From Mucilaginibacter pallidiroseus (lineage in GTDB: Bacteria; Bacteroidota; Bacteroidia; Sphingobacteriales; Sphingobacteriaceae), in the NCBI RefSeq assembly GCF_007846085.1, contig NZ_VOEJ01000006.1:1-64000 (forward strand): 64,000 nt of DNA, given 5' to 3'. Shown one piece after another: positions 19,398 through 23,703 of the stretch. The number at the start of each line of letters is the position of its first letter. The first letter of the stretch is position 1. Position numbers and translations under genes: made by a program. The notes under the pieces are model-generated. The model did not search any database and was not told the DNA's origin. It saw only the letters and a program-made list of their open reading frames with translations.

Positions 19398-21002
19398 TTA
19401 CTCCGTCAACACTGTAAACTTAAAATCAAGCGGCTCAAAGTTGCGGATGAGTTCATCTATAAATAAATGGCCCCATTTAACGTAGCTCAGGCCGAAATTT
19501 TCACTGCGTTCCTGCAAGCTATTTTTGGGGAATATGTCCTGTTTAATTTGTTCTATTTGCTCCAGGCGGGTTTCATAATTGCGTTTCTCGGCTTTTACCA
19601 GCTTTTTTTCGAAGTTATCCAAGGCATGCTTCAGGCGAGCCTGCACAGCCATGGCAGATACGCTAAGTGTGCTGTCGATTTTATGTGCTCGCAATTTAAT
19701 CTTCTCAAATGTGCGTTCAAATTCGCGCCACTCTTCGGTAAGTGTAAGGTCGTGATCGCTATGCTTTTTTACCCAGGCATTCTTGATCTCATCCGTGCTT
19801 TTAAAGATATCGGCAGGGCTAAGCTCCATACTGTTGATTTTTGCAGCAGTTTCTTTTTTTATTACCAAACCAGAATTACGAAGTATCAGGATTGGAAAAT
19901 CAATACCATATTGATCGAAATTGGATTTCAGTTCCAGCCAGTAAACCACCTCGGCACCACCGCCTATGTAGGCAATGTTGGGTAAAATGCATTCCTGGTA
20001 AAGCGGGCGCATAACAACGTTGGGGCTAAATCGTTCGGGCGTACTTGCTATTTCCTGCTTCAATTCAGCTTCGCTAAAGCTTATATCGGTATTCATTACC
20101 AGGTAACGGTCGTTCTCGAAAACCAAGCGTTCGCGCAGGTTATCCTTCAGGTAAAAAAAGTTTATTTCGCGTGGGTTTACCTGTATGTGCACGCCAAGGT
20201 TTTGCAATTGCGCATTTACAGCAGATATATTTTTAAAGCTATTCTGCTCAATAATGTCGCGCTCCATAATAGGGGCAAACTCTTGTTTGAGGCGATGGTC
20301 GTCGGCATCAATAATTACCAAACCATAGCGGCCAAATATGGCGTTAACAAGGTAGCGGGTAGCATCGGCCAGTTTCTCAAATTTGGTATAGGCGGTTTCA
20401 ACCATTTCGCCCAACTCTTCCGAGTAGCCGTCGATACCTAAAACACCCTTGTATTGGTTGATGGCCTGGCGCATGGTATCCGGGTTGATACGACCCGTAG
20501 CACCGGAAGCTTCGTACCACCAGTGTACTTTTTTACCGCCTATGTTGGTGTAGTTGATCTCGGCAAAGTCGTGATCTTCTGACGCCATCCAGTAAACAGG
20601 CACAAAGTTTTTATCCGGGAAGTTTTCCTTCAATTGGCCAGCCAGCTTAATGGCGGTAACAATCTTATAAATGAAATAAAGCGGACCTGTAAATATATTA
20701 AGCTGATGGCCTGTAGTAATTGTAAAGGTATCATCAGACGACAGCAGATCGATATTTTGTTTAATAATTGCTGCCGAATCCAACTCCGGATGGCCTGTAT
20801 TACCAAAATACTGTTCGTTTAATACCTGGGTTAGTAGCGGGCGGTTAGCAACTACCTTTTTATGTTTGAACAGATCGGCAAAGCCCTGCATGGTAGGGCG
20901 ATGGCTGTAAAAAGATTTAAGCTCCGGCACATCGTCAAGGTAATCAATTACCGTTTGCGAAAAGTATCCGGTGTCTTTATAGTCGATACAGGCTGCATCC
21001 AT
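19398..21002 (-). CDS. bshC: Bacillithiol biosynthesis cysteine-adding enzyme
   Basis: The 534-residue protein matches BshC, which joins cysteine to glucosamine-malate in the last step of bacillithiol synthesis. Landmarks are FTITTGHQLNIFTGPLYFIYK (around residues 93-113), a nucleotide-binding-type stretch, PVYWMASEDHDFAEIN (about 135-150) and PNIAYIGGGAEVVYWLEL (about 338-355). A C-terminal coiled-coil (about 440-500) is also expected in the family. Length is normal. The other bsh genes are not in the window. Bacillithiol serves as the main low-molecular-weight thiol in this branch of Bacteroidota. Confidence 0.93.
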   Translation of the reverse strand: MDAACIDYKDTGYFSQTVIDYLDDVPELKSFYSHRPTMQGFADLFKHKKVVANRPLLTQVLNEQYFGNTGHPELDSAAIIKQNIDLLSSDDTFTITTGHQLNIFTGPLYFIYKIVTAIKLAGQLKENFPDKNFVPVYWMASEDHDFAEINYTNIGGKKVHWWYEASGATGRINPDTMRQAINQYKGVLGIDGYSEELGEMVETAYTKFEKLADATRYLVNAIFGRYGLVIIDADDHRLKQEFAPIMERDIIEQNSFKNISAVNAQLQNLGVHIQVNPREINFFYLKDNLRERLVFENDRYLVMNTDISFSEAELKQEIASTPERFSPNVVMRPLYQECILPNIAYIGGGAEVVYWLELKSNFDQYGIDFPILILRNSGLVIKKETAAKINSMELSPADIFKSTDEIKNAWVKKHSDHDLTLTEEWREFERTFEKIKLRAHKIDSTLSVSAMAVQARLKHALDNFEKKLVKAEKRNYETRLEQIEQIKQDIFPKNSLQERSENFGLSYVKWGHLFIDELIRNFEPLDFKFTVLTE

Positions 21003-21117
21003 ATTGTAATATCAATATTAAAGTCTGAAGCGAAAATACGTCAAACCCGTTTAATAGTGAGTGCCGAATTTAGATGTTAAAATCCTATTAACAACATGGT
21101 GCAACCTTAAAGGGTTT

Positions 21118-21140
21118 TATTTTACAATTTGTCCATAAAG
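21118..21140 (+). repeat. Left copy of a 23-bp direct repeat matching the rimO 3' end
   Basis: The 23 bases here are identical to those at 21924-21946, which form the last codons and part of the stop codon of rimO. Read on the minus strand this copy also gives the codons for LYGQIVK followed by a stop (TAA instead of TAG). The two copies bracket the single gene 21194-21862. Confidence 0.85.
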
Positions 21141-21193
21141 ACTTTTGAAAAATAAATTGAGAACATTAGCTTTAAGCCCTTAAACCATTTCAC

Positions 21194-21862
21194 ATGAAAT
21201 TTTCTTTTACATTCTTTTTTTTATTACTCCTTGCCATTATATCTAAGCACGCTCATTCTCAAAGCCGGGTAGATGCCGCCTTGCTCAAATTAGATAGTGT
21301 TTCTCAAGATATTCCTAATGTAAAGTCTTGGATTTTTGTCCCAGCAACCGGAAAATGGGATGGCGATGGGGGGATTCCCAAGTTTGTCAGATGGGCCGTA
21401 TTTACCCACAAAGGTCAAAAATACCACGCCTTTATTTATCGAAAAATTTCTGGCTTTTATAAATACCCACATATTAAAGAGGGCTACACAAACACCTTTT
21501 ATGCAAATTTTATAATTTTTAAAGAGAAAGAATTTCAAGATATTATAAATAAGCTAAATAATAAAAGCGGAAAAAATATCAATATAAAATCATACAATAA
21601 TGGATCTGTTTTTATATCTGCTATTGATAGTTTCAATGAAGCAACGGGTGATGTATTTTTAAAAGCTTTGACTGATGTAATGAACAAGTCAATATTTAGT
21701 AAAAGGAACGAAATTTTTCCGCTGAATTCTCAGACAGTTGATGGTGTAGATGTAGTAAGATTCGGGATGCCTGCTAACCCGGAAACTGAGGATTATTCTA
21801 TTAAAACGGCTTACTATGAGGCGCCATTTTCGGACTTCATAAACACAATGATTATGAAGTAG
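21194..21862 (+). CDS. AT-rich gene for an exported protein of unknown function, inside a direct-repeat-bounded block
   Basis: The 222-residue product has a strong signal peptide (MKFSFTFFFLLLLAIISKHAHSQ). The mature part is rich in Lys, Asn, Ile and Phe, and contains WIFVPATGKWDGDGGIPKFVRWAVFTHKG (given here as residues about 39-68 in outline: W, P, GKWDGDGG, FVRW). It looks like an alpha/beta domain, but I recognise no family. Base composition is clearly more AT-rich than the rimO and bshC neighbours. The gene and its terminator lie between two 23-bp direct repeats of the rimO 3' end, which points to acquisition as a cassette (inference). Confidence 0.7.
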   Translation: MKFSFTFFFLLLLAIISKHAHSQSRVDAALLKLDSVSQDIPNVKSWIFVPATGKWDGDGGIPKFVRWAVFTHKGQKYHAFIYRKISGFYKYPHIKEGYTNTFYANFIIFKEKEFQDIINKLNNKSGKNINIKSYNNGSVFISAIDSFNEATGDVFLKALTDVMNKSIFSKRNEIFPLNSQTVDGVDVVRFGMPANPETEDYSIKTAYYEAPFSDFINTMIMK

Positions 21863-21870
21863 CTAATAAA

Positions 21871-21900
21871 AAAAAGCTCAACCAACTGGTTGAGCTTTTT
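21871..21900. terminator. Bidirectional terminator between the cassette gene and rimO
   Basis: A 14-bp stem (AAAAAGCTCAACCA at 21871-21884 with its complement at 21887-21900) with A and T tails. It lies just inside the right direct repeat and can serve both convergent genes. Confidence 0.85.
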
Positions 21901-21922
21901 ACTTTTAAAATTTACTTCTTTC

Positions 21923-23254
21923 CTATTTTACAATTTGTCCATAAAGGTCAAAGTCTTCGGCGCTGTTAATTTTTACGTTAACAAAACTGCCCACTGCTGC
22001 ATAGTTTATGCTGGCATCAATCAGCACTTCGTTGTCAACTTCGGGCGAGTCATATTCGGTACGGCCTACAAAGTAGTTGCCGTCTTTCTTGTCAATCAAC
22101 ACCTTGTAGGTATTCCCGATTTTTTCTTGGTTTTTTTCGAAGGAGATGCCTTGCTGTATCTCCATGATCGCATCGGCACGTTCCTGTTTCACTTCTTCGG
22201 GCACATCATCGATGAGTGTATGGGCGTGGGTTTTCTCCTCGTGTGAGTAGGTAAAGCAACCCAAGCGGTCAAACCTGGTATCCTCAACCCATTGCGCCAT
22301 TTCTTCAAAGTCCTGCTGGGTTTCACCAGGATAACCGGTAATCAGCGTGGTGCGCATGGCTATGTTTGGTACACGGTCGCGTATCTCGTTAACCACATCA
22401 ATGGTTTTTTGCTTGGTTAAGCCACGGCGCATAGATTTTAGCATATTATCTGTAATGTGCTGTAAAGGCATATCCAGGTACTTGCAAATGTTATCACGCT
22501 CGTTCATCACATCAAGCACTTCCATCGGGAAACCTGAAGGGTAGGCGTATTGCATACGGATCCATTCTACACCATTTACATCGCTCAGGCGTCGTAACAA
22601 CTCGTCGAGGTTGCGTTTGCCATACAAGTCCAGGCCGTAATAAGTTAAATCCTGCGCAATCAGTATTAATTCTTTTGTTCCGTTGGCCACCAGGCTTTCG
22701 GCATTTTTAACCAACTGATCAATCGGTGTACTTACGTGCTTACCACGCATCAATGGGATAGCGCAAAAAGAGCAGGGGCGGTTGCAACCCTCCGCAATTT
22801 TAAAATATGCAAAATGCGAAGGTGTTGTGAGTAAGCGTTCGCCAATCAGTTCGTGGCGATAATCAGCACCTATATTTGTGAGAATGTTTTGCAAATCATT
22901 TGTGCCGAAGTAAGCATCAACATTGGTTATCTCTGCCTCAAGCTCGGGCTTGTAACGCTCGCTAAGGCAACCGGTAACAATTACTTTGCCTACTTTACCT
23001 TGTTCTTTAAGCTCACTGTATTGCAATATAGTATCGATAGATTCCTGCTTGGCATTGTCGATAAAGCCACAGGTATTAATAACTACGATATCGTTTTTGC
23101 CAACCTTATCAGCCTCATGCACTACATCATAAGCGTTGCCTTTGAGCTGCCCCATCAGCACTTCGCTATCATATATATTTTTTGAACATCCAAGCGTAAC
23201 TACGTTTACACGTGGTTTAATCACTGATTTCACTGATTGACTTCGTACTTTCAT
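21923..23254 (-). CDS. rimO: Ribosomal protein S12 methylthiotransferase
   Basis: The 443-residue radical SAM enzyme adds a methylthio group to an aspartate of ribosomal protein S12. The N-terminal MTTase domain (about 15-120) starts VNVVTLGCSKNIYDSE and supplies three cysteines for the auxiliary cluster (C24, then INTCGF and VTGCLSER). The radical SAM motif is GCNRPCSFC (CxxxCxxC, about residue 156-164), and a C-terminal TRAM domain follows. The first 15 residues include QSVKSVIK, encoded by a repeat-like sequence (see findings). The gene ends inside one copy of the 23-bp repeat. In related genomes it directly follows ftsY; here a GxxExxY gene sits between. Confidence 0.94.
   Translation of the reverse strand: MKVRSQSVKSVIKPRVNVVTLGCSKNIYDSEVLMGQLKGNAYDVVHEADKVGKNDIVVINTCGFIDNAKQESIDTILQYSELKEQGKVGKVIVTGCLSERYKPELEAEITNVDAYFGTNDLQNILTNIGADYRHELIGERLLTTPSHFAYFKIAEGCNRPCSFCAIPLMRGKHVSTPIDQLVKNAESLVANGTKELILIAQDLTYYGLDLYGKRNLDELLRRLSDVNGVEWIRMQYAYPSGFPMEVLDVMNERDNICKYLDMPLQHITDNMLKSMRRGLTKQKTIDVVNEIRDRVPNIAMRTTLITGYPGETQQDFEEMAQWVEDTRFDRLGCFTYSHEEKTHAHTLIDDVPEEVKQERADAIMEIQQGISFEKNQEKIGNTYKVLIDKKDGNYFVGRTEYDSPEVDNEVLIDASINYAAVGSFVNVKINSAEDFDLYGQIVK
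21924..21946 (+). repeat. Right copy of the 23-bp direct repeat, within the rimO 3' end
   Basis: These bases are the last seven rimO codons plus the first two bases of the stop, read on the minus strand. They are identical to 21118-21140, 806 bp away and in the same orientation. Confidence 0.85.
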
Positions 23255-23266
23255 TGTATAAATTTT

Positions 23267-23685
23267 GATTCCACTGATAATTGTTAGTGAAATGCTTAGT
23301 ATGATATTCTTTTTACCTCACAGCTTTCATTACCGAAATTGATAAGAAGGCCTGTTTTAACTTTGCTTGCCCTTAAGTAAGATAGTACCTGATTATGAAA
23401 TAGCTTTGGTATAAAACCTGTAACTGATTTTAACTCTACAATAACTAAATCTTCTACAAACAAATCACATCTAAATTTGCCTAAAAATTGTTCGTCGAAG
23501 TAAACGCTAAACTCTTTCTCTGCCTCAAACTTTAACGCCCGGCTTTTTAGCTGATGTTGAAGTGCCCTAGCATATATCTTTTCATTAAAACCTGGGCCCA
23601 ATGCCGTGTGTACTTGAAAACAACATCCAATTATTTTCTGAGTTAAGGCATCGTGTTCGAAATTTTCCATGCAATCGGTGGAATC
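23267..23685. repeat. 12-bp inverted repeats flanking the GxxExxY gene
   Basis: GATTCCACTGAT at 23267-23278 and its near-perfect inverse complement ATCGGTGGAATC at 23674-23685 (one mismatch) bracket the gene at 23296-23670. A related AATCAGTGAAATCAGTGA stretch lies in the rimO 5' end (23222-23238). Confidence 0.6.
23296..23670 (-). CDS. GxxExxY protein (small nuclease-fold-like protein)
   Basis: Starting at ATG 23670 the protein is 124 residues and carries the name-giving motif in GPGFNEKIY (residues about 25-33). The central part KFRCDLFVEDLVIVELKSV has the D...E-x-K arrangement of PD-(D/E)xK nuclease folds, and LLINFGNES is the usual C-terminal strand. The biochemical role of the family is unknown. 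An ATG eight codons upstream (23694) would place one flanking inverted repeat inside the reading frame, so the inner ATG is preferred. It interrupts the usual ftsY-rimO adjacency, which suggests it inserted there. Confidence 0.85.
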   Translation of the reverse strand: MENFEHDALTQKIIGCCFQVHTALGPGFNEKIYARALQHQLKSRALKFEAEKEFSVYFDEQFLGKFRCDLFVEDLVIVELKSVTGFIPKLFHNQVLSYLRASKVKTGLLINFGNESCEVKRISY

Positions 23686-23703
23686 GATCAACAATCAATA
23701 AAA

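Follow-up and report, generated by a model that had tools for sequence, protein, structure and literature searches.

Integrative elements use the 3' ends of conserved genes, both tRNA genes and some protein-coding genes. Certain activator sites, such as the class I sites of CRP, act in phase with the promoter at positions one helical turn apart. The rimO-bshC locus of Mucilaginibacter pallidiroseus recalls both. With integrative elements at gene 3' ends it shares a repeated gene end, a restored reading frame, empty sites and varied cargo; however, no recombinase gene and no shared insert ends were seen here, and the repeat is put down, on our preferred reading, to a promoter element belonging to the gene that follows. 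The likeness to phased activator sites lies in the spacing, with two distances permitted, some 11 nt from each other, and none in between, although a plain pattern search of 13 genomes gave no regulon for the repeated block: besides the rimO copies, only matches with three mismatches to the ungapped 22-base pattern were found.

Promoters of the Bacteroidota primary sigma factor carry TTTG near -33 and TAnnTTTG at -7 (PMC7366714, PMC9723704). The box ahead of bshC resembles the latter, being TAnnTTTG or a one-letter variant and phased in 157 of 160 loci, whereas the consensus, as given in the excerpts of these papers, has no further-upstream 24-nt element lying partly inside a neighbouring gene. 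We consider it probable (about 0.8) that CTTTATGGACAAATTGTAAAATAA, a block of 24 nt, is an upstream element of the bshC promoter, an activator site or similar, and that the repeat reflects selection on a block with two uses and not the work of a dedicated recombinase. The block would be bound by a protein and may control bshC expression.

The window, that is, the whole stretch of DNA analysed, comprises 64,000 nucleotides (contig NZ_VOEJ01000006.1, positions 1 to 64,000). An exact direct repeat, TATTTTACAATTTGTCCATAAAG, was located at 21118-21140 and 21924-21946 on the same strand, with 23 of 23 bases identical and a spacing of 806 bp. It takes in the final seven rimO codons plus two bases of the stop codon, and the minus strand of both copies reads LYGQIVK-stop. 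The rimO-side copy (21924-21946, minus strand) encodes the RimO C-terminus and ends in TAG, whereas the far copy ends in TAA; therefore the exact repeat measures 23 rather than 24 bp. With up to three mismatches, TATTTTACAATTTGTCCATAAAG occurred at just these two places in the window and not at all in 100 shuffles. It was the longest exact direct repeat of the window at spacings of 100-15000 bp, the next being 18 bp, and the longest direct repeat in Markov-chain shuffles of the window (n = 10) was 16 bp. One extra site with three mismatches was present in the 4.25-Mb genome, on contig C11; it falls in the final part of a different ORF and seems to be a chance match.

Specifically, rimO (21923-23254, minus strand; 443 aa) was taken from the ORF list and matched the Pfam families UPF0004, Radical_SAM and TRAM_2, and its last eight codons contain the element. 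The far copy corresponds to the complete 24-nt element (21117-21140, minus strand), whose first 23 nt are the repeat of the rimO end. Past it, on the same strand as rimO, lies bshC (19398-21002; 534 aa; ORF list), with Pfam matches to Rossmann-like_BshC and CC_BshC. A putative -7 box of bshC, TAAATTCG (21065-21072, minus strand; consensus TAnnTTTG), begins 44 nt past the element, a spacing found in empty genomes as well. A possible -33 TTG (21092-21094, minus strand), 19 nt from the -7 box, is weak. Just upstream of rimO, the same strand encodes a PDDEXK_3 family protein of 132 aa (23296-23694), with a TTG start as listed.

Between the repeat copies there is one ORF of note, the cargo gene (21194-21862, plus strand; ORF list), which encodes 222 aa with a hydrophobic N-terminus. 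The GC content of the insert DNA is about 30-35%, compared with about 42-48% within the flanking genes. A terminator-like inverted repeat with T runs (21864-21907; arms of 21 nt, 86% complementary) separates the cargo gene from rimO. No recombinase gene was found in the rimO-bshC interval of the window. Thus, the description in the earlier note held in each of these respects: a 23-bp repeat in the same orientation at the rimO end, a far copy that also spells LYGQIVK-stop, a single AT-rich gene with its own terminator between the copies, and no encoded integrase.

The cargo protein had no Pfam match above the cutoff, only weak matches below it, and none among the PADLOC defence models; its fold prediction from two sequences reached a mean pLDDT of 40, too low to be of use. 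A search of 301 family genomes returned one relative besides the protein itself, 41% identical, in M. aquatilis (G146), and a protein search of the genome contigs, from which records of the window's own genome may be excluded, likewise gave M. aquatilis alone. The cargo gene of the window is thus rare, and the explanation of the repeat does not require its function. The M. aquatilis gene (L005:1358-2154) starts 65 nt past a tRNA-Met gene, in the interval separating era from an opposite-strand gene, and no repeat of the tRNA-Met end was found behind it.

For comparison, rimO ends were collected from 136 of the 141 Mucilaginibacter genomes with a rimO match, together with 40 loci of other family genera, the closest in sequence among the matches listed. 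Four genus genomes with partial rimO matches (G331, G334, G347 and G379) were left out, and another, G349 (L230), was added later, bringing the genus genomes viewed to 137 of 141; it enters none of the counts. Duplicate rows (L009, L012, L020, L021, L023 and L031, from the same genomes as L144, L147, L145, L146, L143 and L142, respectively) were dropped. Among the 176 distinct loci, bshC follows the rimO stop in 167, overlaps rimO in one and is absent from the stretch examined in eight. Subtracting these eight and a further eight with no usable block (L139, L191, L193, L197, L205, L208, L217 and L218) leaves the 160 loci counted below. The tree was built with FastTree from RimO and BshC fragments, with six rows omitted as too short.

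A recognisable block is present in all of these 160 loci. In 143 of them it occurs once, ends with the rimO stop and is accompanied by no insert (empty loci); the remaining 17, the window included, have an insert and a displaced copy, with differing cargo (occupied loci). In the window, the sequence that follows the far copy is similar to the empty site in L013, a near relative, indicating that the far copy marks the ancestral junction. Comparison with relatives thus shows a real insertion in the window. The two checks proposed in the earlier note, for relatives with an empty single-copy site and for other cargo in the same place, thus both turned out positive, the latter with a HAD_SAK_2 protein, exported proteins, a zeta-toxin-like kinase and others.

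The occupants are diverse. L142 (G264) has a 30-bp repeat, read from the sequences, with two genes inside, one encoding the HAD_SAK_2 protein, a 57% identical homologue of which is encoded in the insert of L143 (G258). The insert of L105 encodes a protein with a signal-like N-terminus, that of L185 two proteins, one signal-bearing and the other an HTH protein, and that of L187 the zeta-toxin-like kinase and a 49-aa ORF. In L189, the nearest relative of L187, seeming remnants of this pair were seen. No clear gene was recognised in the inserts of L064, L053 and L044, which by eye contain inverted-repeat-like DNA. The largest displaced insert measures 2.9 kb (L206). No recombinase was present among the longest few ORFs read per insert, and no common motif was apparent by eye at the insert ends. 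On the tree, displacement requires at least eight changes, six of them forced by well supported branches.

The block is conserved beyond what its coding function asks for. In 128 empty genus genomes, the most frequent codon at each of the last eight rimO positions had a frequency of 0.98 (Leu), 0.99 (Tyr), 0.98 (Gly), 0.90 (Gln), 0.99 (Ile), 1.00 (Val), 1.00 (Lys) and 0.99 (stop), compared with 0.30-0.85 at the remaining 38 four- or six-fold codons among the last 100. Because synonymous sites are near-frozen at the rimO end, the DNA, and not the protein alone, is under selection.

Moreover, the block keeps a fixed relation to the next promoter. A TAnnTTYG box lay 32-34 or 43-45 nt downstream of the block in the 157 loci mentioned above; of 163 such boxes, 157 fell in these two bands and none at 35-42 nt, compared with 1.1 of 16.6 boxes in the same bands in dinucleotide-like shuffles. 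The two distances differ by one helical turn. At least 20 switches between the two spacing classes are counted on the FastTree tree. L056 and L104 differ by a plain 11-nt length difference, and in L054 and L055 the entire interval is different, which suggests that exchange of intervals also occurs. Close tree relatives with quite different intervals were seen in L054/L055, L105/L114 and L062/L064; some of these intervals are short and have the box directly ahead of the ATG, others are long and include a 5' leader, which looks like an exchange of entire intervals. Since TTG stands 16-21 nt before the box in just 55 of 157 loci, we make no claim for a -33 box. The -7 box lies only 4-9 nt ahead of the bshC ATG in many loci, and 16 single-block loci have more than 120 nt from box to ATG. 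In L118, L125 and L144-L147, which have a single block, DNA rich in inverted repeats separates the -7 box from the bshC ATG and makes for leaders of 204-305 nt.

Loci in which bshC lies away from rimO give the strongest test of whether the block belongs to one gene or the other. In all eight such genomes of genus g14, TGTAAAATA starts at a distance of exactly 57 nt upstream of the bshC ATG, and TAT stands 8 nt ahead of TGTAAAATA; a box follows at 33 nt in four and at 23 nt in three, and none fits the pattern in one. The rimO end lacks the block in seven of these eight genomes. In G206, rimO still ends in ATTGTAAAATAA though bshC is elsewhere. No element was recognised by pattern in three genus g3 loci where bshC adjoins rimO. 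Seven loci with rimO followed by bshC lack the strict block, two of them with almost no gap, as does L208, with its overlap; the block is altered in L139, L191, L193, L205 and L218. Given the g3 loci and the five altered blocks, the element is not universal. It stays with bshC when the neighbourhood changes in g14, a single genus, and by the pattern is missing in the three g3 loci, where bshC is still next to rimO.

The occupied loci point in the same direction. Of the 17 occupied loci, one retained the strict block where rimO ends, compared with 129 of 143 empty ones, and the rimO stop was TAG in 9 of 17 compared with 1 of 143 (Fisher p = 1.5e-9, a guide only because the loci are related). 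The bshC-side copies were found by searching the TGTAAAATA tail, so their retention of GTAAAATA follows from the search; their other features are independent of it. These copies have TAT 8 nt ahead of TGTAAAATA, with the last T in 17 of 17, the A in 15 of 17 and the first T in 13 of 17, and 16 of 17 preserve the distance to the box; the other bases of the block's upstream half are gone in most. The constraint therefore goes with the bshC-side copy, while the rimO-side copy drifts. G349, outside the counts, supplies an eighteenth occupied locus. Here rimO ends in CTTTATGGGCATATCGTAAAATAA, with two synonymous changes, and an intact copy, TTTTATGGACATATTGTAAAATAA, lies 585 bp past the rimO end, followed after 34 nt by the box TACATTTG and immediately by bshC; the insert contains a 138-aa ORF with a lipoprotein-like N-terminus. 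This arrangement matches what a promoter element of bshC predicts.

We propose that, in most of the Sphingobacteriaceae loci examined, one stretch of DNA encodes the RimO C-terminus and would also serve the bshC promoter. An insertion between rimO and that promoter would disrupt either the protein end or the promoter, except where both sides come to carry the block. In the window, the rimO copy would restore the protein end, and the bshC copy would keep the promoter. Insertions that leave the block twice would persist, producing an att-like footprint without an integrase, and inserts downstream of the box would require no second block.

The alternative that survives best is site-specific recombination in trans: a recombinase encoded elsewhere would place small cassettes at the 3' end of rimO, with the 23-bp repeat as attL and attR and the cassette bringing a replacement gene end. 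It would fit the single-copy empty sites, the varied cargo, the restored rimO end and the six or more independent displacements forced by well supported branches, as well as the location of the sole other cargo-gene relative found, 65 nt past a tRNA-Met gene. It would likewise fit the sharp edges of the repeat, which in the window (23 bp), L142 (30 bp) and L143 are close to the block: the window repeat starts exactly at the block and that of L142 six bases before. Such edges also fit a recombinase core and count against the promoter reading, and because of them we still give this alternative some weight, though we regard it as unlikely and nothing found calls for it. Against it, no recombinase was seen among the insert ORFs read and no shared end motif by eye, only three site copies with one or two mismatches occurred outside rimO loci in 149 genus genomes, and a 22-mer with one free base matched no viral contigs. 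Additionally, it leaves the frozen synonymous sites, the phased spacing and the element at distant bshC genes unaccounted for. The proposal of integration at the rimO 3' end in the earlier note therefore divides: insertion as such is borne out by empty sites and varied cargo, but the repeat as an attachment site is disfavoured, as the block tracks bshC. Two narrower candidates were rejected, namely an integrase-bearing island at rimO, given the 2.9-kb maximum insert size and the longest ORFs free of recombinases, and a phage att site, given the absence of viral matches to the 22-mer.

A compound of the two ideas strikes us as rather improbable: the block would combine three roles, as operator of bshC, as RimO C-terminus and as the point of crossover for a trans-acting recombinase, which would exchange integrase-less single-gene cassettes at a site preserved by selection on other grounds. 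We give still less credence to the block working in RNA, at the end of the rimO mRNA or in the bshC leader, instead of as a promoter site: co-transcription of the two genes is conceivable in empty genomes, but a -7 box at two distances one helical turn apart shows phasing expected of DNA sites, and the position of that box directly before the bshC ATG in many loci also speaks against it. Chance, or a simple local duplication to which the neighbours are irrelevant, is hardly credible, since shuffles exclude the former, displaced copies with cargo recur in 17 of 160 loci with conserved spacing, and the case that the earlier note would have taken as refutation, a local duplication with no empty site anywhere, is contradicted by the 143 empty relatives.

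Among the papers listed in the literature searches, none dealt with the control of bshC in Sphingobacteriaceae, judged by title or abstract start, and none, by title, with RimO among the matches listed for integration at rimO, which mostly concerned Streptomyces. No relevant paper was found on bacillithiol together with rimO, judged by title, or on methylthiotransferase with islands; searches on Mucilaginibacter gave no papers, and those on promoters none of relevance. Direct repeats at gene ends are commonly read as attachment sites of mobile elements, and a promoter element of bshC would give the same footprint; the rimO-bshC case is therefore a caution for island detection. Selection on a shared promoter element would also explain why the rimO-bshC gap holds cargo in one form only. 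For the Sphingobacteriaceae, the block is a conserved sequence and a candidate site for the regulation of bacillithiol synthesis.
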